This document shows, piece by piece, positions 21,739 to 34,956 of a stretch of 64,000 bases of DNA. How positions within the stretch are numbered: position 1 is the stretch's first letter; every line of letters starts with the position of its first letter. This stretch comes from Streptomyces noursei ATCC 11455 (GTDB taxonomy: Bacteria > Actinomycetota > Actinomycetes > Streptomycetales > Streptomycetaceae): NCBI RefSeq assembly GCF_001704275.1, contig NZ_CP011533.1, forward strand, positions 8,432,001 through 8,496,000, written 5' to 3'. The notes below the pieces were generated by a model. The model saw only the letters and a list, made by a program, of their open reading frames with translations, made no database searches and was not told the origin of the DNA. A program made the translations under genes and the position numbers.

Positions 21739-23088
21739 TCAGTCGATGGTGATCCTGGCGTACCTGTGCCCGGTCCAGCCGTTCTCGTCGCCGCGGTGGT
21801 GGCGGCCGACCATGACCTTGCCCGCAGGAGCCTCCCGGTCGCCGGCCTGACTCTCTTTCCACTCCTTGTCCCATTCCGCGTCAGGCGTCACCTTCACGGT
21901 GACGCCGGACAGGGCACCCGTCACGTTGAGTCCGGCTACCGTCGTTTGTCCTGTGACTCGGAGTGTGCCTCCCACCGCGGCATTTCCGGTGGCCGCGAGC
22001 GTGTTCACCGTCGTTTGTCCGGTGACGCCGAGCGTGCCCGCCACCGTTGCGTTCTCGGTTGCCGCGAGTGCGCTCACGGTGGTTTGTCCGGTGACTCCGA
22101 GTGTGCCTCCCACCGTCGTGTTCCCGGTGGTCGCGAGTGCGCTCACCGTCGTTTGTCCGGTGACCCCGAAGGCGCCCTCCACCGTCGCATTGCCCGTCGT
22201 TGTCAGAGAGGCCAGGGTCTGGTCCGCTACGCACACCGTGAGGTGGTCCCACCGTGTCACGAACCCGCCGACCGGCGTCGGTGTCACGGTCTTCAGTGCG
22301 AGTGCGGTGTCCCGCAACACCGTGTCCCGTCCCACCTGATACATGCTTCCGCCCGCGATCGAGGGATCGTCGATCCGCAGACCGTTCATATACAGTTCGT
22401 GGCTGTCGCCGGGCGCGTGGTGCCACTCCAGCCTCACCGGGGCCCCCGCGTTGATCAGGGTCGCCGGCGGGCCGCCCTGTTCTTTGAGGGCGACGAGCGC
22501 CCGTCCGACACCTGGCGACGGGTTGGCTCCGCTGCGGAACGGGTATTTCGCGACGTCGAGCGTCGCGGTGTTCGGTGTTTCCGGAATCGTGTCCCCGGTG
22601 GTCGCCCATTCTTCGATCCCGATCCGGGCGATACCGGTCTTGTCGCTGACCAGGATGTTGCTCAGCGTGATGTACAGGCCGTCGACGGTGACTTCACTGG
22701 TCCCGTCCCGCGGCACTACTTCGAACCGCACCTTCGAACCGGACGCGTCACCACTGTTCTCCCGCCCTGACGGGAACACCGCTGTCTCGGCCGTCGGCAC
22801 GGCGACCAGAACGTCCGGCTGCGGACTGACGATCGTCCATCCGGATTCCGGCTCGACGTACGGCGCGATGCCCTCGCCGGTCAGCGCGAGGTCCTGGGCG
22901 AGCGAACCCACGGGCAGCACGACGGCGATGCGGCTGCACCTCACAGGCATAGAACCGCTGTTGGAGATGACCAGGTCGATGGACGCGTAGGAGTTCTCGT
23001 CCTCCTGCCCCGCCTCCACGGCAGGGGGGCTGACGGTCAGCGGGGCGGGGACGGTCGTCAGGGCGTAGCTGAGCACGCAGTCGGTCAT
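21739..23088 (-). CDS. Tail-fibre-like repeat protein, last gene of the DUF6603 operon
   Basis: 449 residues. The N-terminal ~290 residues look like beta-sandwich domains (VISNSGSMPVRCSRI, VTVDGLYITLSNI, WDHLTVCVADQ). Residues 297-388 are four 23-residue repeats of the type TGNTTVGGTLGVTGQTTVSA, the kind of Gly/Thr/Val repeat that builds trimeric beta-helical shafts in phage tail fibres. The last ~50 residues contain PAGKVMVGRHHRGDENGWTG, a compact head-like domain. No signal peptide. Its start overlaps the stop of the 1293-residue gene (23085-23088, ATGA), so it is made with that protein. The shaft-plus-tip form suggests target binding; that is inference. The ordinary phage or CIS structural genes are absent nearby. 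Confidence 0.75.
   Translation of the reverse strand: MTDCVLSYALTTVPAPLTVSPPAVEAGQEDENSYASIDLVISNSGSMPVRCSRIAVVLPVGSLAQDLALTGEGIAPYVEPESGWTIVSPQPDVLVAVPTAETAVFPSGRENSGDASGSKVRFEVVPRDGTSEVTVDGLYITLSNILVSDKTGIARIGIEEWATTGDTIPETPNTATLDVAKYPFRSGANPSPGVGRALVALKEQGGPPATLINAGAPVRLEWHHAPGDSHELYMNGLRIDDPSIAGGSMYQVGRDTVLRDTALALKTVTPTPVGGFVTRWDHLTVCVADQTLASLTTTGNATVEGAFGVTGQTTVSALATTGNTTVGGTLGVTGQTTVSALAATENATVAGTLGVTGQTTVNTLAATGNAAVGGTLRVTGQTTVAGLNVTGALSGVTVKVTPDAEWDKEWKESQAGDREAPAGKVMVGRHHRGDENGWTGHRYARITID
21925..22200. repeat. Four 69-bp coding repeats (23 residues each)
   Basis: Four tandem units encode the TGN-VTGQTTV shaft of the fibre-like protein. The units differ at several bases, so expansion is not very recent, but recombination between them could change shaft length without a frameshift. 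Confidence 0.85.
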
Positions 23089-26000
23089 CGGGGCTCTCCT
23101 TCGGGCTGATCGCCGTGGTCGGCGCTGTGCGTGGGCCGTAGGGTGAGGCGGCCGGAACGGAGGGTCGGGGTGGGGCGCGGGTGGTGGGGTTCACCGTCGG
23201 AGGCGTATGTGGTGGCCGTGCTCGTGTCGGTCGTCTCGTTCTGCACCCAGGTCCATGTGCCGTGCCGGTCGGAGGGGCGCGGCAGGACGAGTGCGGGCGG
23301 CTCCCCGGGCCGTCCGGAACGCGCCCCCGCCGGGTCCGGTACGTACTCGCTCACCGGCAGCGGCCCCAGTCGGAAGGACACCGGGAGTTCGGCCAGTGGC
23401 GGCTCGACGAGCCGTGCGGGCAGCCGGACTTCGGCGGTGGGCAGGATCTCCGTCGTGGCGTGCACCGTGCCGCGCGGGTCGGCGATCAGGGTCAGGAACG
23501 CGGCGTCCCGGTCGTCCGGGTCGCTGCCCGGTGGCCGAGCCGGGAGTGTCAGTGCGGCGCCTGTGCCGATGGGGTCGAAGTAGTCCCGTGCCCCGTCGGG
23601 GAGTTCGGCCGCCCCCAGGACCGTGTGCAGGACGCGGTAGTCCGTGTCGTGGTGCTCGCCGTGGAAGTAGCCCACGAGTCCGTCCGCCAGCTCGTTGCGT
23701 TCGCCGAGCCGCACCGGCCACCGGTAGCCGGGGTACGCCGGTCCTTCCGGGGCGCGCAGGTTCTTCCACGACGGGTCCGGGTACGGCGGCCCGTCGAGGT
23801 CGATTCCGAAACGTACGCGCATCAGTGCCAGCGGCCGGCCGACGAGCACGCTCGGGGTGTGCGGGGGCGTGGCGTCCCCAATCGGCGTGGTGGTGGACAG
23901 GGTGCGGTCGATGACGGTGAGGAGGGAGCGGAGTGCCGCCGGCCCCCGGTCGGGGGCGACCAGTGCGCTCAGGAAGCGGTGCAGGTGCGGGAATTCCTCG
24001 CTCAGGTCGTCGATCTCGTGGTGCCGGGAGTACGGCAGTGCGTGCCAGGTCACTTGCGGGTTCCCGCTGGGCGGAAGGGTGGTGCGCAGCTCGCCGAGCG
24101 GGGTGCCGTCCGGTCCGTAGGCGTACAGGGCCTGGTCGAGGTGCCCCGGGACCAGCCATGCGGACACCGGGGTGGTGTCGGGGGCACTCGCGGTGGCGAG
24201 CGGGTTGAGGTCGTCGAGGGCGTCCAGGAGGGTGAAGCCGGCCCGGGCCGGCTGGGTCAGGCGCGGCGTGAGCTGGGCGAAGCGGTACCAGGTGGACGGG
24301 TTGATGGTCCAGTGGCCGCCTCTCGCATCCTGGGGGTCCTTCCAGGAGGGAGTCAGCTCCTGGGGAAGCTCCGGCGCGAAACGCCGCGCGGGCACGCCGA
24401 CGCCGATGACGTCACCGGGCTCGTTGCCCGGTGGGAACCGCAGGGCGAGCGGATCCGGGAAGATCGCGGGCAGGGCGTGGCCGAAGCGGTCGATGACGGC
24501 CAGCCGCGCGAAGGCGAACTGCCCGGCCCGCAGCGACTGGTAGAGGCTTTCGTTCCAGCCGATGAACGGGCGGGGGAGGGCACCGGGGTTGGGTGGCAGG
24601 GTGCGGCCCATCGCCTCGGTGAGCGCGGTGCGCAGGTCGGGCGGCAGGTCGGAGTGGGGGTCGAGAGCGGCCGGGGCGGAGGCGCGGGCGGCGAGCAGTT
24701 CGGTGAAGCCGGCGAGGGGTTGGGAGAACCAGTCGGCGTCGTCCTCGACCTGCCGGGCGAGGGCCCGCAGCGCGGCGGCTGCCGGTCCCGGGTGGGTACG
24801 GGCGTACTGGCGCAGCGCCGCCGCCGTGGTCTCGCCGGCGGTCGGGGCGAGGAACTGGCGGCCGCTGAGGACGCGGGGGATCGCGTGGGCGCCGGTACCG
24901 AGCCAGTGGTAATCGGTGCCGTCGAAGCTCCAGTTGTCGCGGTCGCCGTGACTGCCGTCCGGCTCGCCCCGCCACTCGATGGGGAAGTGGTCGACCTTCC
25001 ACTCGAAGAACAGGGGCTGCCAGGGCTGCCGCCATTGCGCGGTGTATTCCCCCGGGGTGCCGACGGCGTTCACGTGCGGTGTGCGCATGGCGTCGGCGAG
25101 TGCCGTCACGTCGCCGGTGAAGCCGGTGGCCGTCGCGAGCGTGCGGGCGTTGGCGGAGGCGAGGTGCAGCAGCTCGCGCAGCAGGGCCGACAGCACACCG
25201 GACAGACCGTCGGGGGACGGGAGGTTCGGCGGCTTGGGGGTCTGCGCGTCGGTCGCGGAGACCTGGTTCCCCGCCACCCGCACACCGGAGACGAGGGCGT
25301 CCGGCCAGCGGCAGGCCAGCGGCGGGTCCTCGTCCTGCTCGGAATCCTCGTACGCGCCCTCGCGCACGGCGTACGGGTCATCGGGGGCCGAGCCCTCGGG
25401 TTCCGGCGGGACGGGCCGGTCCTTCGTTCCCCGGATGACCACGACGGGATCGTTGGGCCGGTGGAAGCCGGGCAGGACCGCACGCTTGAGGACGACCTCG
25501 TCCTCCGGGAGTCCATGGTCGCGCTGGTACCGGCCGATGTCGGTGGTGAGTTGGTCGGGGGTGTCGCCCCAGGGAACCGCGCCACGCAGCCTCGCCACCA
25601 CGTCGCGCTGGTCCTTGGCCGCCTCGGTCGCGTCCTGGAGGCGATCGGCGAGGTCCTCGCGGTACTTCCCGGCCGGCTCCCCCGGCGCGTCCGGCACCTT
25701 CGGCAGGTTGGTCGCCCACCACAGGTCGTACAGCCGACGCTGGGCGGCGACGAGGTCCCGCACGGCGGCGTCGTGCGCGGCCTGGTCCTCGTTGAGCTTG
25801 GCGAGGACCTCGGCGTACGCGGCGCGTACGGCCCGGGGCCGACGGCGCCTTCCCTCCGGGGCGGCGGGCTGCTCGGCGTCCTCCAGAACCCAGCTGTAAC
25901 CGCCGGGCTCCGGCGTGAACCACGAGGCGTGCACGGCGCGTTCGGCCTGGAACTGGCCGTCGGGCTCTTCGAGCAGGTCGAGCACGCCCGAGTGCACGGC

Positions 26001-26966
26001 CGACAGCAGCGCGGCCAGCTCGGGCGGGGAGCCGGCCCGGCGGGCGGCGTACTCCTTGAGGGCCTTGGTGGCGTGCTCGGTGTTGTTGCCGACGGCGACG
26101 GTGACGTAGTCGGGCCGGTCGGAGGCGGGCATGCCACTACCCCGGCGCTGCCACTGCACGTCGAGGGCGGTGCCGTGGCAGACGGTCCGAGCCGCGTCGG
26201 GCACCGGGCCCGTGGCGGTCCATTCGAGGGCAGCCATGCGCGCGGCGAGGTCCCCGGCGAGCGGATCCGCGGCCGGGTCGCTGTACCAGCCGGCGACCAG
26301 GTAGCTGAGCTGGTAGGCGGTGTCCGGATCGAGGTCGTCCGTACGGTCGTGGACGGAGAACACATCGGTGTTGTACGGCTGGTAGGCGGCGAAGGTCGGC
26401 AGGCCCGGGCCGACGGCGGTCAGGAACAGGCCGTCCGGCGTACCGGGTTCGCGCCACGCGCCGTCGGCGAGGTCGATGCGGCGGCCGATGCGGGTGAGGC
26501 GGCCCTCGCGGTCCAGGTAGGTGCTGGAGCCCTGAGCGGGGTCCAGGTAGTCGCTCTCGACGATCCAGCCGGTGTCGGTGCGCGCGCCGGAGAGGGTGGC
26601 GACGGCCTGGCGGACGACGAGCCAGCGGTTGGGCACGAGCGGGAAGACCGGCACGCCGTCGCCCTGCTCGTCCACGCCGTGGGTGAGGGCCTGAGGCAAC
26701 TGCCAGTGCAGGTAGACGCCCTCGCGATCGGGGTCGGCGTTGAAGGCCGTGTCGGTGTTGGAGAACGCGGGCGGTTCCGGGGACAGATCGAGCCGGGTGA
26801 GGGCGTAGTTGGCCTGCCAGCGCTGGAAGACCTCGGCGGAGCGCACGCGCTCGTTGACGGTGAGCGCCTCGATCTGCAGGGGGACGACGAGGGGCTGTGG
26901 GTCCGGTGCCGCAGGAGGGAGCGTCACGGCGCTGTCCTGTCCTTCCTTCGGGGGGCTCGCGGTCAT
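23085..26966 (-). CDS. Large uncharacterised protein, third gene of the DUF6603 operon
   Basis: 1293 residues from ATG 26966 (an apparent longer frame upstream is a shadow of the preceding gene). The start overlaps the preceding stop by ATGA. No signal peptide or membrane helix. Visible parts: an opening beta-rich region (VYLHWQLPQALTHGV, PNRWLVVRQ, about 90-130), a helical coiled-coil-like stretch at about 375-460 (AEVLAKLNEDQAAHDAAVRD, then LQDATEAAKDQRDVVARL), an aromatic segment WQPLFFEWKVDHFPIEW near 649, and a C-terminal beta-rich half with FHGEHHDTDYRV. The family is not recognised and no catalytic motif is evident. Codon use is like its neighbours. It was probably co-inherited with the other three genes and may be a structural or scaffold protein. 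Confidence 0.72.
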   Translation of the reverse strand: MTASPPKEGQDSAVTLPPAAPDPQPLVVPLQIEALTVNERVRSAEVFQRWQANYALTRLDLSPEPPAFSNTDTAFNADPDREGVYLHWQLPQALTHGVDEQGDGVPVFPLVPNRWLVVRQAVATLSGARTDTGWIVESDYLDPAQGSSTYLDREGRLTRIGRRIDLADGAWREPGTPDGLFLTAVGPGLPTFAAYQPYNTDVFSVHDRTDDLDPDTAYQLSYLVAGWYSDPAADPLAGDLAARMAALEWTATGPVPDAARTVCHGTALDVQWQRRGSGMPASDRPDYVTVAVGNNTEHATKALKEYAARRAGSPPELAALLSAVHSGVLDLLEEPDGQFQAERAVHASWFTPEPGGYSWVLEDAEQPAAPEGRRRRPRAVRAAYAEVLAKLNEDQAAHDAAVRDLVAAQRRLYDLWWATNLPKVPDAPGEPAGKYREDLADRLQDATEAAKDQRDVVARLRGAVPWGDTPDQLTTDIGRYQRDHGLPEDEVVLKRAVLPGFHRPNDPVVVIRGTKDRPVPPEPEGSAPDDPYAVREGAYEDSEQDEDPPLACRWPDALVSGVRVAGNQVSATDAQTPKPPNLPSPDGLSGVLSALLRELLHLASANARTLATATGFTGDVTALADAMRTPHVNAVGTPGEYTAQWRQPWQPLFFEWKVDHFPIEWRGEPDGSHGDRDNWSFDGTDYHWLGTGAHAIPRVLSGRQFLAPTAGETTAAALRQYARTHPGPAAAALRALARQVEDDADWFSQPLAGFTELLAARASAPAALDPHSDLPPDLRTALTEAMGRTLPPNPGALPRPFIGWNESLYQSLRAGQFAFARLAVIDRFGHALPAIFPDPLALRFPPGNEPGDVIGVGVPARRFAPELPQELTPSWKDPQDARGGHWTINPSTWYRFAQLTPRLTQPARAGFTLLDALDDLNPLATASAPDTTPVSAWLVPGHLDQALYAYGPDGTPLGELRTTLPPSGNPQVTWHALPYSRHHEIDDLSEEFPHLHRFLSALVAPDRGPAALRSLLTVIDRTLSTTTPIGDATPPHTPSVLVGRPLALMRVRFGIDLDGPPYPDPSWKNLRAPEGPAYPGYRWPVRLGERNELADGLVGYFHGEHHDTDYRVLHTVLGAAELPDGARDYFDPIGTGAALTLPARPPGSDPDDRDAAFLTLIADPRGTVHATTEILPTAEVRLPARLVEPPLAELPVSFRLGPLPVSEYVPDPAGARSGRPGEPPALVLPRPSDRHGTWTWVQNETTDTSTATTYASDGEPHHPRPTPTLRSGRLTLRPTHSADHGDQPEGEPR

Positions 26967-29308
26967 CGGGCCGAGCCGCGGGTGATGAGCTGACGGCGGG
27001 GCGCGTTGACGAGCTGCACGGCGAGCCCGGCGGGGCCGAACTCGGCTGCGGCCTGCTGGCCGAGTTCGGTGAGCCGGTCGCCGAGTCTGCGCAGCAGCCC
27101 GTCTGCCGCGTCGGGGCGCAGATCGAGGACGGCGCGCCGTCCGGCGGGGTCGGGGCGCAGGTGGGCGTCGAGTCCGTCGGCGCCCACGGGGTTCGGGAAC
27201 GACTCGCCGTCGATCTGCCGGGCCACATTCGGCGCGTCGACGTGCCGCAGGTCGATCACCCGGCGTGCGTCCGGGCTGAGGTCGATGCCGAAGGAGAGTC
27301 CCTCGGGCGGCTCGGCCAGCTCGACCTCGTCGGGTACCTGCTCGAACAGGACGAGGAGGACGTCGGGCCCGAGGACGTCCTGCCGTAGCACGGCGATGGG
27401 CCGACGGTCGCCGCCATGGCCCCGGTACGGGCGGACGAGCAGCCCCGGGCACTCCTGCACCAGCGCGGACCGGATGACCACACCCGCGCGGGGAGTCGGC
27501 CCCTGGTCGTCGCCGCGTGCCCAGGGCGCGGCGAGGCGGGCCAGGGCGGCGTCGGTCTCGCCGGTGATGGCGATGCCGGCGGCACCGGAGACGAGTGCGG
27601 TGAGCCAGCCCTGGTCCACGTAGAACACGCGCAACGACTCGCCGGGTAGCGCACGCTCGTCGGGGACGAGGTCGGCGAAGGGGACGTTGTGCAGCAGGCG
27701 CAGCCGACGCAGCCACTCGCTGATCGGGGCGGCGGCGTCGGCGAGTTGAGCGGTGAGGGCGGCGCGGAGCGGGGCCGGGGGATCGGCGAGCAGTTCGGCG
27801 GTGCGCGCGGCCCGCCCGGCCCCGCGCCGCCCGGCGGCGGGGGTGCGGGGGAAGGGCTCGGGCGGTGGTGTGTGGCGGGGCGCGGCGGGGTGGGTGCCCG
27901 CGCGCAGGAGACGGGCGGCGGTGCCGTTGGCGGCGAGCTCTTCGAGGAGGGTGCCGAAGGGGCGGGGCGTCAGGGCGCGGGCCGCCACCTCGGCCGATCC
28001 CGCCACGTCCAGTCCCACCGCGGCCACACGCTGTGCCAGCACCGCGGCGCGGGAACGGGCTCTGGCGTACCACGCGGTCAGCATCGCGGCGAAGTCGGCG
28101 TCCGCGAGGGCCAGCGCGCGGCCCAGGGTCCAGGCCGCGCCCCAGCCCGCGTCGAACAGGCCCCACGCCTTCTCGTACGCCATCAGCTGCGCGGCGCTCG
28201 TCCAGCCGGACGCGGGCGGGGCCGGCAACGGCTGCGCGGGCTCGGCCGTGAGCGGGCCCCGATACCAGGCGTAGCCGCGCTCACCGGTCTCCAGGCCGTA
28301 CGCCAGCGGCACCCGGCCCGAGACCAGCCGTGCGCGGGCCGCGGCGTATGCGGCAGGGTCGGCGCCGGCGGGCGGCTCGGCCGACGGCACGGGGGCGCGC
28401 AACAACAGGTCGCGTTCCTCGCCGCGCTCGTCGAAGAGGAAGTGTCGCACCCGGCCCGGGAACCCGCCGCCGGACGCCGGCCGGCTGGTGAAGGACCAAC
28501 TGTGCAGCGCGGCGAGGCGGATGCGCACACCGGAGTTCAGGCGCCCGGCATCGGCGTCGGCGAGGATGGACCGGCAGCCCTCCAGAGCGACGAGGTGCGC
28601 GGCGTAGCGCACCTCGCGCTCGCGGTCGGGCAGCCGGTTGGCGAGCACGACCGCGTACGCGCCCTCGGCGAGCTGTTCTCCGCGCAGCCCGGTGTCCGTG
28701 CGCACGTCACGGACGTGGATCAGGTGCCGCAGCTCCGCGGTGCGCGGCACGAGCGTGGTGAAGACGTCACCGGGGATCTCGACGGTGCGGCAGAGCGCGG
28801 TCGGGTCGCCCTCGATCTGTGCGGGCGCGATGCGCGGGTGGCGTACGCCGTCCGCGTCGGTGAGGAGTTCCTCCGCCGTCATGGGCCGGGTCAGGGCCAT
28901 GGATTCGGGGTCGTCGGGCAGCTCGCCCTGCGCGAACAGCAGGAGGGCGAGCCACGGTTCCTCGGGCGCTTCGGCGAGGGCGGCACCGGACTCGTCCAGG
29001 CGGCGCAGCCACGGCAGGAGCGGGTCGGCGAAGGTGAGGTGCGCGAGGGTCGAGGAGTGGTCGGATCGGGCCTCGTGCGTCGGATTGACGGCATGCACGT
29101 GCTCGTCGGCGAGCGCGAACTGCGGGGCGCGGACCTCGAAGGTCTCCTCGACGGGCGTCAGGTAGTCACCGGTGTTCACACCGGGCAGGGTTTGACCGGC
29201 CCGGAGCCGGTAGAGCCCGGCGTTGATCGCCGGTTCGCGGTTGTCCTGGAAGCGCAGGACGAAGCCGGGATCGGCGGCCGTCGAGAAATCGCGGCGCTGG
29301 TCCGTCAT
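26963..29308 (-). CDS. Uncharacterised protein, second gene of the DUF6603 operon
   Basis: 781 residues from ATG 29308, overlapping the DUF6603 stop by ATGA (29305-29308); stop overlaps the next gene likewise. Cytosolic by appearance (no signal or membrane segment). N-terminal region with DPGFVLRFQDNREPAINAGL and a His-rich DEHVHAVNPTHEARSDHSS (about 70-90), then PWLALLLFAQGELPDD; the centre is helical with many Ala and Arg, and the C-terminal 200 residues are beta-rich with RVFYVDQGWLTALVSGAAG and PYRGHGGDRRP. I do not recognise the family or see an enzyme motif. Repeated co-location with a DUF6603 protein elsewhere would show that the set is one system. Confidence 0.72.
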   Translation of the reverse strand: MTDQRRDFSTAADPGFVLRFQDNREPAINAGLYRLRAGQTLPGVNTGDYLTPVEETFEVRAPQFALADEHVHAVNPTHEARSDHSSTLAHLTFADPLLPWLRRLDESGAALAEAPEEPWLALLLFAQGELPDDPESMALTRPMTAEELLTDADGVRHPRIAPAQIEGDPTALCRTVEIPGDVFTTLVPRTAELRHLIHVRDVRTDTGLRGEQLAEGAYAVVLANRLPDREREVRYAAHLVALEGCRSILADADAGRLNSGVRIRLAALHSWSFTSRPASGGGFPGRVRHFLFDERGEERDLLLRAPVPSAEPPAGADPAAYAAARARLVSGRVPLAYGLETGERGYAWYRGPLTAEPAQPLPAPPASGWTSAAQLMAYEKAWGLFDAGWGAAWTLGRALALADADFAAMLTAWYARARSRAAVLAQRVAAVGLDVAGSAEVAARALTPRPFGTLLEELAANGTAARLLRAGTHPAAPRHTPPPEPFPRTPAAGRRGAGRAARTAELLADPPAPLRAALTAQLADAAAPISEWLRRLRLLHNVPFADLVPDERALPGESLRVFYVDQGWLTALVSGAAGIAITGETDAALARLAAPWARGDDQGPTPRAGVVIRSALVQECPGLLVRPYRGHGGDRRPIAVLRQDVLGPDVLLVLFEQVPDEVELAEPPEGLSFGIDLSPDARRVIDLRHVDAPNVARQIDGESFPNPVGADGLDAHLRPDPAGRRAVLDLRPDAADGLLRRLGDRLTELGQQAAAEFGPAGLAVQLVNAPRRQLITRGSAR

Positions 29309-32300
29309 CGGGCGTCCCCTTCCGGGGCGGAGGTGGCGAACACGGTGTAGAGGGCGGCGGAGGCGACGGTGCCGGGCGGCAGCTGCCATTGCTCGACCAC
29401 GACGGGCGCGTTGTCGTGGATCTCGACGACGGTGACGGTCGCGTCGTCGCGGACGACGAACGCGCGGGCGGCGTCCGGAGCGAAGGTGATCGACAACGGG
29501 CCGGCGTCGAGCGGGAGTTCACCGAGGAGGGTGCCGCCGCTGACGACGGATACGGCGGACGCGTGCAGGACCCAGGCACGGTTGGCGGGGTCGACGGCGA
29601 GCGCACGGGGCTCGGGGCCGACGGCGACATCGTGTTCGGCGACTGTGACGGGCGGCGAGCCCCAGCGCTCGTAGAGCGTGACCACCTGTCCGGTGTCACC
29701 GGCCTTTCGCAGCACGACGGCCCGACGGCGCGAGTTGGTCAGCATGGCAAGCGCGGTGCCGCGCGCCGGGAAGTTGTGCGGCGTGTAGGAGGTTCCGGGC
29801 GTCGGCACCGGCATCACCTGCACCTGGCCGTTGCTGCCGGCCGCCGCGCCGTAGACGTACACCCGCCCCGGCTCCCCAGGGGTGACGAACGTCGGCGTCG
29901 CGGGCCCGAAGACCACGCCGAGTCGCGCGCCCGTCGAGGTGTCGTAGGTGACGGTCTTGCTGCCGTCGTTGGCGTTGACGTACAGGCGCCCCGCCTCGAC
30001 GTCGACCGCGATGCCGCCGAACGCCCCGACATCCTGCTGAGCCACGTCCGTACGCACGGGCTCGGCGCCCCCGGCCAGCTCGACGGACGAGGCCGCGATA
30101 CGGGCCGGACGGGCCACCACCGCCCGCGAGTCGTCCCGATTGACCGCGAGCACCGTCGGCCTTCCGGCCAGCTCGATGCCGGTGCGCGGCGCGCGTACCT
30201 GCTGGGCGACGAGGTCGATGACCGCGAGCTGCCGGGGATCGGATCCGGCCGCGTACAGCGTCGCTCCGGACGCCGAGGTCACGGCCAGGTACGGCCCCTG
30301 CTGCCCGACCGGCACCCGTCCGACGACGGTCGCCGTGTCCGGGTCGACGGACAGGACGGCCCCGGTGGTGTCGTCCAGGACCAGCACGACGCGGCCGGGA
30401 GCCGGCGGCACGGGATCATCCGTGAGCAGCAGCGGATCCGCGTCGAGTCCGGCGGTACGGGCCTGCTCGGCGTAGTCGCCGACCGTGCCGTTGGGCAGCG
30501 GGAGGTCGGGGCGGAGCCCGTCGAGGACGCCGTGCATGCGGGTGCGGGCCGAGCCCGCCGCGAGGCCGGCGATCTGCTCGGCGAGGACGGCCACGCCCGC
30601 GCCGAGCGGTTCGGCGAGTTCGACGGGTGAGCCGGTCGGGTCGGCGTTCGGATCGAGTGGCAGCGCGGCGTCGGGGTGGAGCTTCTCCCAGGCCAGGTCG
30701 CGTTCGGCGATCGGGCCGAGATCCTGGCCGTTGACCCGGGGCGGGGGAACGGTGACGCGCAGCCCGGTGAGGTGGTCGAGCAACGGATCCTCGCCCAGGA
30801 CCTTGTTCTGGGGGACGTCGGGGTCACCCCACAGTGCGAAGGGAACGTTCCCGCGCTCGGTCTCGATCCGCCACTTGTCGTCGTTGGGCAGGGAGCGCCA
30901 GGAGGCGACCTGCCGGCGGCGGGTGTCGCTGTACTCGACGGTGACGTGGAGCAGCCCGTCGATGCCCTTCTCCTTCATGGGCCGGATGTCGACGGTGCGG
31001 TTGCCCGCCGGGTCCCGGTCGTTGAACCGGGTCCGGGACGTGGGCACGACGGACGAGACCGAGAAGGAGAAGCCCGCCGGGTCGGCCAGCCACGGCTCCT
31101 CACCGGCCTTGATACGGGCGGCCCGGAGTACGGGGTCGGCGTCGGGGTCGGTGAGCAGCCCGGTGAGCGGGTGCGCGGTGAGCGGGGCGTGCGGCGGCAG
31201 CAGTTGGGCACGGAACTCGTCCCAGGTGAGTGCGACCGGACCGGACAGCCGGGCGCCGAACGTGACGGTGACCTTGATGAAGACGAACTTCGCCGTGACC
31301 GTGCCGCCCGTGGGCGGCCCCCACAGGTCGAGGGAGGCGCCGATCTCGCCGCTGAGGGTGAACAGCAGCTTGACGCGGGCGCCGACGCGGACGGAGATCC
31401 CGGCACAGAAGTGCAGGGGCGCCCACTGGACGAGCAGGTTGGCCCGCGCGGTCAGCCACGCCTCGACGTTGCCGGCCTTGAAGCGCACGTCCAGCGAACC
31501 GCCGGCCATCACGGCGTTGGGGGTGAGCGCGAAGTAGGCGCCGCCGCTGACGGTGACGGTGGAGCCGACGGACCAGGTGAAGCCGAGGCGGGGAACGACC
31601 GGGAAGTAGTCGGGCCTGGTCTTCTCGTAGTCGGGGTGGTAGCCGCCGACGGTGAGGACGAAGTTCCCGGCGTGCGGGCTCGGCCCGAACCAGGAGTAGA
31701 AGGCGAAACCGCCGGTGAGCGCGCAGGACGGGTCGATGACGTAGGAGTCCACGAGCTGGGCGGTGGCCGCGAGTTCGCCGCGGGCGGACTGGTAGACGAT
31801 CCGCAGGTCGACGCCGACACGCGCGTACTTCTTCGCGCCCTTCTTCGGGAAGCTCGCGCTGGCTCTTCCGATCAGCGCGAGGGTGAGATCACGGCCGGCC
31901 TCCAGGAGCAGCAGGACACGCGCCTGCACGAACTCGAAGGAGGTGAAGTCGATGCCGCCGGCCAGCCAGATCTGCCCTTCGGTGGGGCCGACCCAGGGGT
32001 TGGCCCCGCCGGTGAGCAGGGGGAGCGCGGTGAGCGGGTCGTCGGGGAGCCCGCCGTCCAGGCCGGACACCAGCGGGAACTGGGCGATCTCCGTCTGCTC
32101 CGGTACGCGGACGCTGCTGTGGTAGCCGAAGCCGAGGGCGAAGCCGGTCACGCGGAACGGCGGCGGCCCGCCGAACGTGCCCGAGAGCCTGCCGAAGGCG
32201 AAGAACGAGGCCATGCCGTCGCCGCGGCGCTGGTACGCGCCGAGCGCGAGCGCTCCGAACCTGGGCATCTCGACGACGAGCAGGCCCTCGACCAGGATCG

Positions 32301-33981
32301 TGTAACCGTCGGGCGGGGGCTGGCGGTTGACGAGGGCACCGGCGATGTGCAGCGGGTTGCGGCGCAGGTCGACGGAGAGCCCCTGGAAGCGGGGTTCGGC
32401 GCGCATGGTGTCGAGGTCGAGGGCGATGCCGAGACCGAGGACCCCCAGAGTGAACCCGGCGGCGCCCATGCTCGCGTCGAACATCACCAGTACCTTGCCG
32501 GAGTCGCAGCCGGCGCCGATGCGCCGCAGGTGCAGGGGCCCGAAGGAGCGGCCGATGTCGACCCAGGCGGCGGACTCCGGGCCGCCGCTGCCGTCCCGTA
32601 CGGCGAGCTGCTGCTGCCCGCTTCCACCGAAGGAGACCGCGAGGGGGTCCTGCGCCTCGCCCGCGATCTCGTACGGGAGGGTGAGCACCACACCTTTGGG
32701 CAGTCCGGTCCCGGAGTCGGGCAGCTTGCCGCCGGTCCAGCCGGTGGCGTCGAGGTCGGCGTTGACCTGCTGGACCTGGGCGGTGGACAACGCGCCGCTG
32801 GTGGCCAGGAACTGGACGCCGGTGATGCCGACGTCCGCGCCCGGCGGGATCCGGTCGCCGACGAGGGGGAGTTGGGACAGCTTGGTGGGCTTGAGGTCGG
32901 AGATGTTCGCGGCGACGAGCAGCACGAGGGCACGCGGGATGCCGGGCACGGACGCGACGACGATGCCACCCCCGGCTTCGGTGGTGGCGGACAGCAGCAG
33001 CCGCCCGGCGGTGGTGTCGTAGCGCAGGCCGATGGAGGCGAGCGTGGGGAGCAGACCCGGGGGCACGCCGGGCGGGATCGACAGCCCGACGGCCCCGGCG
33101 AGTTCGCGGGACGTGATGCCGGGGGTGCCGGTCCAGCGGGCGGTGAGGGTACGGCCGGTGGGATCGCTGGCGTAGTCGATGGTGAACTCAAGGACGCGCG
33201 GGTCGCCCTGCTGCCGGGGAATCGCCAGAAACAGGGTGGCGCCGTAGGTCGCGTCGTAGCCGGAGCCGGAGCTCCGCCGCAGATCAACCCGCACGACGAG
33301 GTCGGCCGTGACATCCCCCAGGGGAAACCGGACCTCGGCCTCCACCTCGAACCGCTGGTTGCGGATGTCGTAGCCCAGTGACAGCCGTTCGACGGCGACG
33401 TCCCTGAGAAGGGCCGGCGGATCGGCTCCGAAGAGCCGGAACAGGGCACCGATGACCTGCCACTGGGTACCAGGCGCGGGTTCCACGGTGAACGCGTAAC
33501 GGGAGCTCGTCGCGTCGAAGTCGAGTTCGCAGGTGATGAGGAGCTGCTGCCCGTCCGTGACATCGAGCCGGGCCTCGGCGACCAACGACCGTACCGCTGC
33601 GGTGTCCAGGGAGCGGATCTCGTATGCCAGGCCGAGGTCCCTGAGCCCGAGGCCGCTCAAGAACCCCAGCACCGGGTGCCCGTTCAGGGACAGGCCGACG
33701 CGCACTCCGGCTATGGCGTCGGTGCCGTCCGCGGCGAGGAAGCGGATTGCTGCGGTAGGGGAGTCCGGATCGACCGTCCCCCTCAGCGTCAGCTGCTCCG
33801 GATCGGGATCGAGCTCGGTGAACTCCGATCCCACGGCGAACCAATCGCTCAAGGCGTAATCGATGTTCACGGAATTCTTGAGGTCACCCAGATCATCCGG
33901 GAGGCCGTCGGGAAGTTTCAGCTCCTGGCCAGGAGAAAGGCCGCTGAGCCAGGCTTTCATCTCTTCCACGGTCATCGCCAT
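29305..33981 (-). CDS. DUF6603-type giant protein with C-terminal beta-propeller, first gene of the operon
   Basis: 1558 residues. The start at 33981 follows AAAGGTGAG with 5-base spacing. Residues about 1-550 are repeated beta-strand-rich segments (LSLGYDIRNQRFEVEAEVRF type). The centre, about 560-920, carries the DUF6603 pattern: FVLTVGGYHPDYEKTRP, VPRLGFTWSVGST, GGAYFALTPNAVMAGGSLDV and a DLWGPPTGGTVTAKF segment. From about 1197 onward a YVTN/WD-like beta-propeller follows (VDPDTATVVGRVPVGQQGPY, then VIDL and AVDPANRAWVL units). There is no signal peptide. DUF6603 has no established function that I know. It heads a four-gene ATGA-coupled operon and shares a 219-bp divergent region with the Cys-rich gene at 34201. 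Confidence 0.82.
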   Translation of the reverse strand: MAMTVEEMKAWLSGLSPGQELKLPDGLPDDLGDLKNSVNIDYALSDWFAVGSEFTELDPDPEQLTLRGTVDPDSPTAAIRFLAADGTDAIAGVRVGLSLNGHPVLGFLSGLGLRDLGLAYEIRSLDTAAVRSLVAEARLDVTDGQQLLITCELDFDATSSRYAFTVEPAPGTQWQVIGALFRLFGADPPALLRDVAVERLSLGYDIRNQRFEVEAEVRFPLGDVTADLVVRVDLRRSSGSGYDATYGATLFLAIPRQQGDPRVLEFTIDYASDPTGRTLTARWTGTPGITSRELAGAVGLSIPPGVPPGLLPTLASIGLRYDTTAGRLLLSATTEAGGGIVVASVPGIPRALVLLVAANISDLKPTKLSQLPLVGDRIPPGADVGITGVQFLATSGALSTAQVQQVNADLDATGWTGGKLPDSGTGLPKGVVLTLPYEIAGEAQDPLAVSFGGSGQQQLAVRDGSGGPESAAWVDIGRSFGPLHLRRIGAGCDSGKVLVMFDASMGAAGFTLGVLGLGIALDLDTMRAEPRFQGLSVDLRRNPLHIAGALVNRQPPPDGYTILVEGLLVVEMPRFGALALGAYQRRGDGMASFFAFGRLSGTFGGPPPFRVTGFALGFGYHSSVRVPEQTEIAQFPLVSGLDGGLPDDPLTALPLLTGGANPWVGPTEGQIWLAGGIDFTSFEFVQARVLLLLEAGRDLTLALIGRASASFPKKGAKKYARVGVDLRIVYQSARGELAATAQLVDSYVIDPSCALTGGFAFYSWFGPSPHAGNFVLTVGGYHPDYEKTRPDYFPVVPRLGFTWSVGSTVTVSGGAYFALTPNAVMAGGSLDVRFKAGNVEAWLTARANLLVQWAPLHFCAGISVRVGARVKLLFTLSGEIGASLDLWGPPTGGTVTAKFVFIKVTVTFGARLSGPVALTWDEFRAQLLPPHAPLTAHPLTGLLTDPDADPVLRAARIKAGEEPWLADPAGFSFSVSSVVPTSRTRFNDRDPAGNRTVDIRPMKEKGIDGLLHVTVEYSDTRRRQVASWRSLPNDDKWRIETERGNVPFALWGDPDVPQNKVLGEDPLLDHLTGLRVTVPPPRVNGQDLGPIAERDLAWEKLHPDAALPLDPNADPTGSPVELAEPLGAGVAVLAEQIAGLAAGSARTRMHGVLDGLRPDLPLPNGTVGDYAEQARTAGLDADPLLLTDDPVPPAPGRVVLVLDDTTGAVLSVDPDTATVVGRVPVGQQGPYLAVTSASGATLYAAGSDPRQLAVIDLVAQQVRAPRTGIELAGRPTVLAVNRDDSRAVVARPARIAASSVELAGGAEPVRTDVAQQDVGAFGGIAVDVEAGRLYVNANDGSKTVTYDTSTGARLGVVFGPATPTFVTPGEPGRVYVYGAAAGSNGQVQVMPVPTPGTSYTPHNFPARGTALAMLTNSRRRAVVLRKAGDTGQVVTLYERWGSPPVTVAEHDVAVGPEPRALAVDPANRAWVLHASAVSVVSGGTLLGELPLDAGPLSITFAPDAARAFVVRDDATVTVVEIHDNAPVVVEQWQLPPGTVASAALYTVFATSAPEGDAR

Positions 33982-34200
33982 GGATACTCACCTTTCAGCC
34001 GCCGACCGAGCCGCGGGAGCAATTGCCGAGAGCAAAGGACATCGACCGGCCGGACGCTACCCCCTTCGAAACTCGACCTGCCACCCTGGCCATGCATTTC
34101 CGGACATCGACTCAATGGAAAGTCCCACTGGACCACCGGGCCCATCGGTGCTAGTTTCGGCGCCCGTTCAGCATGTGCGCTATTCGGGGAGGGCGACCGC
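33982..34200. promoter_or_regulatory. Divergent regulatory region between the DUF6603 operon and the Cys-rich gene
   Basis: 219 bases between two divergent starts, less GC-rich than the genes on either side. It must hold promoters for both directions. Each side has a good ribosome site (AAAGGTGAG for the operon, GGGGAGGG for the plus-strand gene). No operator or known sigma-factor motif is certain. Confidence 0.5.
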
Positions 34201-34956
34201 ATGACGGCGACGGGGCTCCTTACGGCAGGGCAGGACGTCAACCTCTACCACGGCGGCAGGAGTTCGGATCTCTGCCCCCGATGCAGGCACGGCCGGAACA
34301 CGAAAAGCGGACCCTTCGTCCACGGCCTCAAGGAACTCACCGACAGCGAAAAACTCCGGCAGGTACTCGCGCAGGTGGCACACAACCTGCAACAGGACAA
34401 AGACCTGATCGAGAAGAATCCCGAACAAGCCTACTTCATGATGGGCGCGCTGGAGGCGCAGGTCGCGGGAGAGCAATACTTCCTCATCTCCTCCAGCGGG
34501 CGCCAGGGGCTTGTGCCGTGGATCGAAACAAAGCACCTCGACGGCATTCCGTACCACCCCGGAAAATGGGAGATCGTGAATTCCCAGGTGCCGGAGACCC
34601 CCGACAGGGGTTGGACAACGCTCATGGGTCAAAAGGCAGACCTGACGCCCATCTGCGAGGCGCTCCGAGAAGGTCAGCAGTGTGACAAAGTCATCGGCCA
34701 GCCGTGCGCGGCCATCAAACTCCTGCGCACACTTGCCGACCGGAACAGGAACGGCAGGCCGATCAACAGGCTGTACATGAGCGAGATGGTGTACGTGCAC
34801 GGCACCGCAAAAGTCCCACAGAACCTCCGCGCCTACCACGGCAACGGCAACGCCTGCTCATGGACGGCCCACTCCTGCGACAAGTGCGAGAAGCGGATCC
34901 CCTACCTCCTTTGCACGGTCCCACTCGACCACATCGAAGCCGAAGCCCCGCAGTAG
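34201..34956 (+). CDS. Cys-rich protein divergent from the DUF6603 operon
   Basis: 251 residues, no signal peptide. It begins with a CPRC pair (25-28) in a SSDLCPRCRHGRN context. The C-terminal part has PCAAIKLLRTLAD (Cys169), a strand LYMSEMVYVHG, and HSCDKCEKRIPYLLC (Cys226, Cys229, Cys238). The order helix with Cys-Ala, strand, helix with Cys-x-x-Cys resembles cytidine-deaminase folds (CAE ... PCxxC), but the catalytic Glu would be Ala171, so an active deaminase is doubtful. A zinc-binding structural protein is an equal possibility. Its position, divergent from the four-gene operon with a shared upstream region, suggests a partner or effector. Start ATG 34201 has a good ribosome site. Confidence 0.62.
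   Translation: MTATGLLTAGQDVNLYHGGRSSDLCPRCRHGRNTKSGPFVHGLKELTDSEKLRQVLAQVAHNLQQDKDLIEKNPEQAYFMMGALEAQVAGEQYFLISSSGRQGLVPWIETKHLDGIPYHPGKWEIVNSQVPETPDRGWTTLMGQKADLTPICEALREGQQCDKVIGQPCAAIKLLRTLADRNRNGRPINRLYMSEMVYVHGTAKVPQNLRAYHGNGNACSWTAHSCDKCEKRIPYLLCTVPLDHIEAEAPQ

Follow-up and report, generated by a model that had tools for sequence, protein, structure and literature searches.

Active and binding modules vary in contractile injection systems, phage tails and Tc toxin complexes. PMC3482391 describes polymorphic toxin systems whose active modules can be exchanged, including those of ART and metallopeptidase type. The Umb particles, according to PMC11062931, are made up of ALF repeats (UmbC), UmbB and a trypsin-like/lectin UmbA.

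We analysed a stretch of 64,000 nt (the window), positions 8,432,001-8,496,000 of a 9.8-Mb single-contig genome, and describe here five of its genes, A to E. Genes A-B-C-D form a conserved and undescribed unit; no paper naming DUF6603 or PF20248, the family of protein A, was found in a literature search that left aside preprints and most subscription journals. We propose, at about even probability, that the unit is a modular carrier, on which a partner protein docks and whose fibre binds the target. The features are:

29305-33981, minus strand: gene A, 1558 aa, DUF6603 protein and proposed carrier backbone (open reading frame, PF20248)
33448-33981, minus strand: A residues 1-178, N-terminal module going with E, proposed dock
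31054-32553, minus strand: A residues 477-976, DUF6603 core, an amphipathic beta-sheet by the model of a homologue
29308-30591, minus strand: A residues 1131-1558, tail with beta-propeller-like repeats
26963-29308, minus strand: gene B, 781 aa, without known fold (open reading frame, model)
23085-26966, minus strand: gene C, 1293 aa, or 1280 aa if the start is at 26927 (open reading frame)
21739-23088, minus strand: gene D, 449 aa, fibre-like protein (weak PHROG fibre matches)
22219-23088, minus strand: D residues 1-290, conserved base
21886-22197, minus strand: D residues 298-401, repeat shaft, where the PHROG matches lie and a repeat pattern is visible in the sequence
21742-21885, minus strand: D residues 402-449, tip, which relatives exchange
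34201-34956, plus strand: gene E, 251 aa, Cys-rich and divergent, proposed partner of the A N-terminus
34148-34158, plus strand: GTGCTAnTTTC element before E, possible promoter part

This locus is like the Umb system (PMC11062931) in its occurrence in Streptomyces, a multi-protein body, diversified binding domains and a diversified active module; it differs in that A-E have no ALF, UmbA or UmbB match (Pfam and NCBIfam, E up to 1), and in that the active partner is here proposed to be a separate protein that goes with the A N-terminus. With contractile systems and phage tails it shares a fibre-like protein beside large structural and effector-like genes, but A-E have no sheath, tube or baseplate family match in Pfam, NCBIfam or PHROGs, the weak fibre matches of D apart. 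The likeness to Tc complexes lies in several giant proteins, an exchangeable toxin and binding domains, whereas A-E have no TcA, TcB or RHS family match (Pfam and NCBIfam, E up to 1). Polymorphic toxins may have a counterpart here, in that the neighbouring gene and the A N-terminus change together, the neighbours' activity being putative; unlike in those toxins, the module would be encoded in trans and exchanged with a putative docking N-terminus, and no immunity gene came to light, short of a systematic search. ApoB-100 and the large lipid transfer proteins may share with A the large amphipathic antiparallel beta-sheet that is predicted for an A homologue, but there is no sequence relation, and A is bacterial with modular ends. 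The Streptomyces diphtheria-like insect toxin of PMC13171429 is a different matter.

An earlier note, made from the DNA sequence, had described four minus-strand reading frames of 1558, 781, 1293 and 449 codons and a divergent Cys-rich gene, and these open reading frames were confirmed. Because GC by codon position is coding-like in A-E and relatives of all five proteins are present in other genomes, the genes are more than chance. The ATGA overlaps reported for every junction are indeed found at A/B, B/C and C/D in the window. The ATGA start of C is nevertheless insecure, since the gene caller chose a start 13 codons later (1280 aa, leaving a 35-nt gap after B) and a Streptomyces noursei homologue, 96% identical, is listed with 1280 aa. 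In relatives a 4-nt overlap occurs at 28/73 A/B, 16/75 B/C and 19/55 C/D junctions called; close gene spacing is thus general among them and the ATGA overlap is not.

DUF6603 was found in 9 of 296 genomes drawn from the phylum, and B and C in four each. These are the same four genomes, the window's own among them; all four have DUF6603, and the sites lie side by side. It is on these grounds, together with the gene order in the loci described next, that we call A-B-C-D a unit. The supposition of the earlier note that B and C form a set with DUF6603 proteins was not refuted by the test it had named, as in the 296 phylum genomes both occur only with DUF6603. Among nearer relatives, DUF6603 matches occur in 16/100 related genomes and in 40/392 genomes sampled from the genus, where they fall into two operon types.

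Genome contigs scanned with the B profile (one peptide pattern) yielded 82 loci, of which the best 80 are considered here. A simple gene caller recognised B in 78 of these 80; A stands directly before B on the same strand in 73/78 and C directly after it in 75. D relatives were called after C in 55/78 loci, a count from which the caller misses some D genes, e.g. those of L048 and L049. Hosts include Streptomyces, Kitasatospora, Nocardia, Actinomadura, Saccharothrix, Frankia and other actinobacteria, and B relatives lie on 8/72,556 plasmid records (Streptomyces, Embleya, Paenibacillus), two of them Paenibacillus plasmids. The nearest named relative of the locus is that of Streptomyces noursei A-2-1, with an A core 94-95% identical. 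The S. klenkii genome (G060) has five DUF6603 operons (L023-L027) with differing neighbours, as if a repertoire were kept.

Gene E, 219 nt from A and divergent, encodes nine Cys in 251 aa and has no Pfam or other family match. Its relatives occur in 9/80 loci and none was found on plasmids. E is present in 2/100 related genomes (the window's own and one other), adjoining DUF6603 both times, and it goes with one class of A N-terminus, which supports the earlier suggestion that the divergent gene is a partner of the operon.

Other loci have other genes in this place. A metallo-beta-lactamase-like gene stands directly before A in 10/80 loci, nine times within 150 nt, the label being given by a profile of four such genes; those of L030, L045 and L052 are above the Pfam cut-off, and those of L023 and L107 have no Pfam match. 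It occurs together with E in no locus of the 80. A relative of the ribosome-inactivating proteins (RIP) lies 88 nt before A in L047 (25.8 bits, cut-off 21), and an ADP-ribosyltransferase-like gene follows D in L078 (PF02917, 34.6 bits; PF22596, 31.5 bits; both above cut-off); these two neighbours come from one species each. M91-like proteins occur in nine loci, eight of them with HExxH, and one of three scanned passed the Pfam cut-off. Their genes lie directly before A in L061 (the one without HExxH), L066 and L087, divergently before A in L105, and after D in five loci. Partner-like genes are thus found on either side of the unit, and the slot before A holds no recognised gene in about 50 of the 75 loci with A. 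Stand-alone proteins like the N-terminal beta-rich part of A, recognised by profile in L078 (19402-21132) and by eye in L074 (17808-19571), lie beside M91-like genes and are perhaps separate docks for M91-like partners.

The comparison of N-termini covered 76 A proteins, one from the window and 75 from other loci. The E-type N-terminus, A residues 1-178, occurs in 10/10 A proteins beside E (that of the window included) and in 3/66 others (Fisher 3e-10, kinship ignored). For the hydrolase type the reference was the first 430 residues of S. klenkii A (L043), matched over nearly the whole length; it occurs in 9/10 A proteins beside the hydrolase gene and in 3/66 others (Fisher 1.5e-8, kinship ignored; partial matches in L062 and L066 left out of the count). 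Exceptions are an E-type N-terminus without E in L098, L114 and L120, a hydrolase-type N-terminus without the gene in L058, L093 and L118, and the gene without that N-terminus in L095. A subtilase-like frame was seen, by eye only, in front of A in L093.

The A N-terminus thus follows the neighbouring gene rather than the ancestry of A. The window's near relatives, S. klenkii and S. albospinus, have a metallo-hydrolase-like gene in place of E. Their A cores are 79-81% identical to that of the window, and alignment of the N-termini is marginal (about 30% over 100 residues, E 0.001-0.002). Against distant E loci the core is only 38-40% identical and the N-termini 44-52%. This pattern of low core and high N-terminal identity shows that N-terminus and neighbouring gene move as a pair, which varies between close A genes. 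On a tree of A cores, a quick tree with long-branch warnings, E needs five changes and the hydrolase seven, of which at least four and at least six are forced by starred branches. Counted over independent pairs, N-terminus and gene agree on average in 3.5 of 4 for E (disagreeing in 0) and in 5 of 6 for the hydrolase (disagreeing in 1), tests that singly do not reach 0.05.

Protein D keeps its base and swaps its tips between relatives. Among eight close relatives residues 1-290 are 72-98% identical, whereas identity over the last 110 residues spans 19-95% and the tips sort into a few dissimilar kinds. The tail-fibre-like shaft ascribed to D rests on weak PHROG matches, at 1.5e-5 to a family of unknown function and at 0.0031 to a tail fibre. 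The D tip of L091, one of nine D proteins scanned, is an F5/8 type C (discoidin) domain above cut-off. Further binding modules occur around the unit: hemopexin/propeller-like proteins in the neighbourhood of 9/80 loci (hemopexin above cut-off in two of three scanned); a LamG protein that follows in 2 of 80; a CBM96-type domain on 1/50 B homologues; and, among the 120 C homologues listed of 305 found, discoidin domains on at least nine and hemopexin on at least one.

The simplest account of a neighbouring gene and an A N-terminus that move together is that their products bind each other, and we hold docking of the partner on A, taken alone, to be more probable than the carrier as a whole. In that carrier the N-terminal module of A would dock the partner encoded next door, here E, and B and C would complete the carrier body. 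The conserved base of D would attach the fibre to the body and the exchangeable tip would choose the target, a role likened to that of the discoidin, hemopexin, LamG and carbohydrate-binding modules in relatives. The partner would be the active cargo; its counterparts in other loci resemble RIP, ADP-ribosyltransferases, metallopeptidases or metallo-hydrolases. The complex would then most likely bring an enzyme to other cells, possibly eukaryotic. In the loci with RIP- and ADP-ribosyltransferase-like genes, the kind of partner hints that the targets are eukaryotic. Neighbours and fibre tips are both swapped, as a carrier with varied loads and varied targets should show. Physical docking, assembly into a particle, export, delivery and toxicity are here what we infer. 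Counting against a carrier, no secretion signal was seen and no secretion gene was identified in the unit. The many loci with no recognised gene before A, the lack of a family match for E, the single-species occurrence of the RIP- and ADP-ribosyltransferase-like neighbours, the one M91-like protein above cut-off among three, the limits of the tree and pair tests and the low scores of the A model also speak against it. A crude hydropathy scan brought out neither a signal peptide nor a membrane helix in B-E; the claim that all four operon proteins lack both is less clean for A, where one 19-residue stretch (340-358) has a mean Kyte-Doolittle value of 2.1.

Beyond this, we hold it possible, at somewhat less than even, that the unit represents a non-contractile carrier particle of a new class, found in actinobacteria and, given the Paenibacillus plasmids, perhaps more widely, with an ApoB-like-sheet giant, an exchangeable dock for a separately encoded cargo enzyme, a body in which at least one protein has an unseen fold, and a tip-swapping fibre, delivering enzymes to competing or eukaryotic cells. 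If so, a type of sheet that is familiar from lipoprotein particles would here underlie a machine for protein delivery. That N-terminus and neighbour are linked would give a handle on E and on many hypothetical proteins. Even if delivery is wrong, a conserved multi-gene system has been defined, with a large protein matching no known fold.

The system is wider than the earlier note had it: partner-like genes occur on either side of the unit, and there is a second DUF6603 type, in which the large proteins X and Y take the place of B and C. Around the DUF6603 matches of the 16/100 related genomes 20 regions were compared: 11 with A-B-C, one cut after B, one with A-B and no recognised C, six with X (mostly with Y as well) and one weak match left unclassed. 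A further 40 regions, a subset of the matches (37 from the genus sample and three from the phylum sample), comprise 20 with B or C, 19 with X or Y and one 5.8-kb contig. The N-terminal part of B resembles X in profile comparison (probability 94.5, E 7.6e-8); C gave no profile match to Y, and B and C show no profile similarity to each other. Within the non-contractile-particle reading, the second type would be a sister system. It was seen in L027, L035, L036, L038, L039, L040 and L146-L163, often with a third, 'LARQWQLAEF'-like protein; X, Y and this third protein are without Pfam family. In L027 (12825-17618) lanthipeptide-like genes, as judged by eye, adjoin the second-type operon: frames resembling a dehydratase and a cyclase, and a short Cys-rich one like a precursor.

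The partner slot of the second type holds PhoD-, S8-, M64- and trypsin-like proteins or WD40 propellers, with matches above cut-off for PhoD in L027, S8 in L035, M64 in L165 and WD40 in L156. These proteins fit extracellular digestion equally well, and this counts against the carrier. The alternative that survives best, and one we still hold unlikely, is an extracellular or surface enzyme-display complex for feeding, in which the carrier takes hydrolases to polymers or lipids and what the binding modules recognise is substrate, not prey; the PhoD-like, subtilase, M64-like and trypsin-like proteins, the CBM96-type domain on a B relative and the discoidin domains on C relatives would suit it. 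RIP- and ADP-ribosyltransferase-like neighbours, though, have no digestive role, and the hydropathy scan gave no signal peptide.

Protein A is a DUF6603 protein, as had been noted: PF20248 matches residues 477-976 with 450.9 bits (cut-off 27), over profile positions 2-501 of 502. The beta-propeller tail claimed with it came out as weak NCBIfam matches below cut-off, at residues ~1196-1291; the tail is common to near relatives at 69-82% and mostly absent from other E-type A proteins. Structures were predicted for two proteins, an A homologue and the window's B. The DUF6603 core of the A homologue models (pTM = 0.56) as a large amphipathic antiparallel beta-sheet whose strands have one hydrophobic face, and its top Foldseek neighbour is ApoB-100, at a low TM-score of 0.17. 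In the proposed carrier A would be the backbone, the sheet offering a hydrophobic face through which it could touch membranes, lipids or proteins.

The same model lends itself to an intracellular or released lipid-bearing particle, with A wrapping a hydrophobic core as ApoB does, B-D as its coat and the neighbouring enzymes acting on the content. The ApoB-100 match and the one-sided strands speak for such a particle, but it leaves the exchangeable fibre tips and the toxin-like neighbours unexplained, and A has no sequence relation to lipoproteins (no lipoprotein family match in Pfam); we consider it decidedly unlikely.

The window's B gave a confident model without ordinary enzyme fold, in line with what the earlier note had expected of the large proteins; its lack of a known fold covers the folds in the VIA lists, which are re-ranked Foldseek matches. 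Searches of solved-structure sequences with profiles of A, B and C and with E gave nothing relevant, the A profile drawing one irrelevant PDB match at E 0.26, and neither Pfam nor NCBIfam gave a match above cut-off for B, C, D or E.

An anti-phage defence system, with E or the metallo-hydrolase as effector, is very unlikely: a variable effector-like neighbour beside a conserved core and a patchy occurrence in genomes would suit it, but the binding modules point outward and PADLOC 2.0.0 gave no match for A-E at E up to 1, on which ground known anti-phage defence was rejected. Derivation from a phage tail or contractile injection system, which the weak tail-fibre matches of D might suggest, is highly improbable, as B, the protein searched, has no relative in viral contigs, phage records or the viral fold library (phage or viral origin was rejected on this ground) and A-E have no sheath or tube family match in Pfam, NCBIfam or PHROGs.

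The earlier statement that sheath and tube genes are absent holds for A-E; elsewhere in the genome, at 3,938,659-3,939,129 (L123) and ~4.5 Mb from the window, there is a gene of the phage sheath family (PF04984, 42.3 bits, cut-off 31.4), which perhaps belongs to a separate tail-like or injection locus.

Nucleic-acid deaminase toxins have [HC]xE and PCxxC zinc motifs. The E family keeps PC(S/A)A and HSCxxCExRIPYL, without the Glu of the first deaminase motif; a deaminase assignment of E, suggestive by eye, found no support in Pfam, where E has no match. Between A and E no sigma-70-like promoter or terminator was found by consensus. The element GTGCTAnTTTC is kept in five aligned E/A intergenic regions, two of them nearly identical, and is possibly part of the E promoter.
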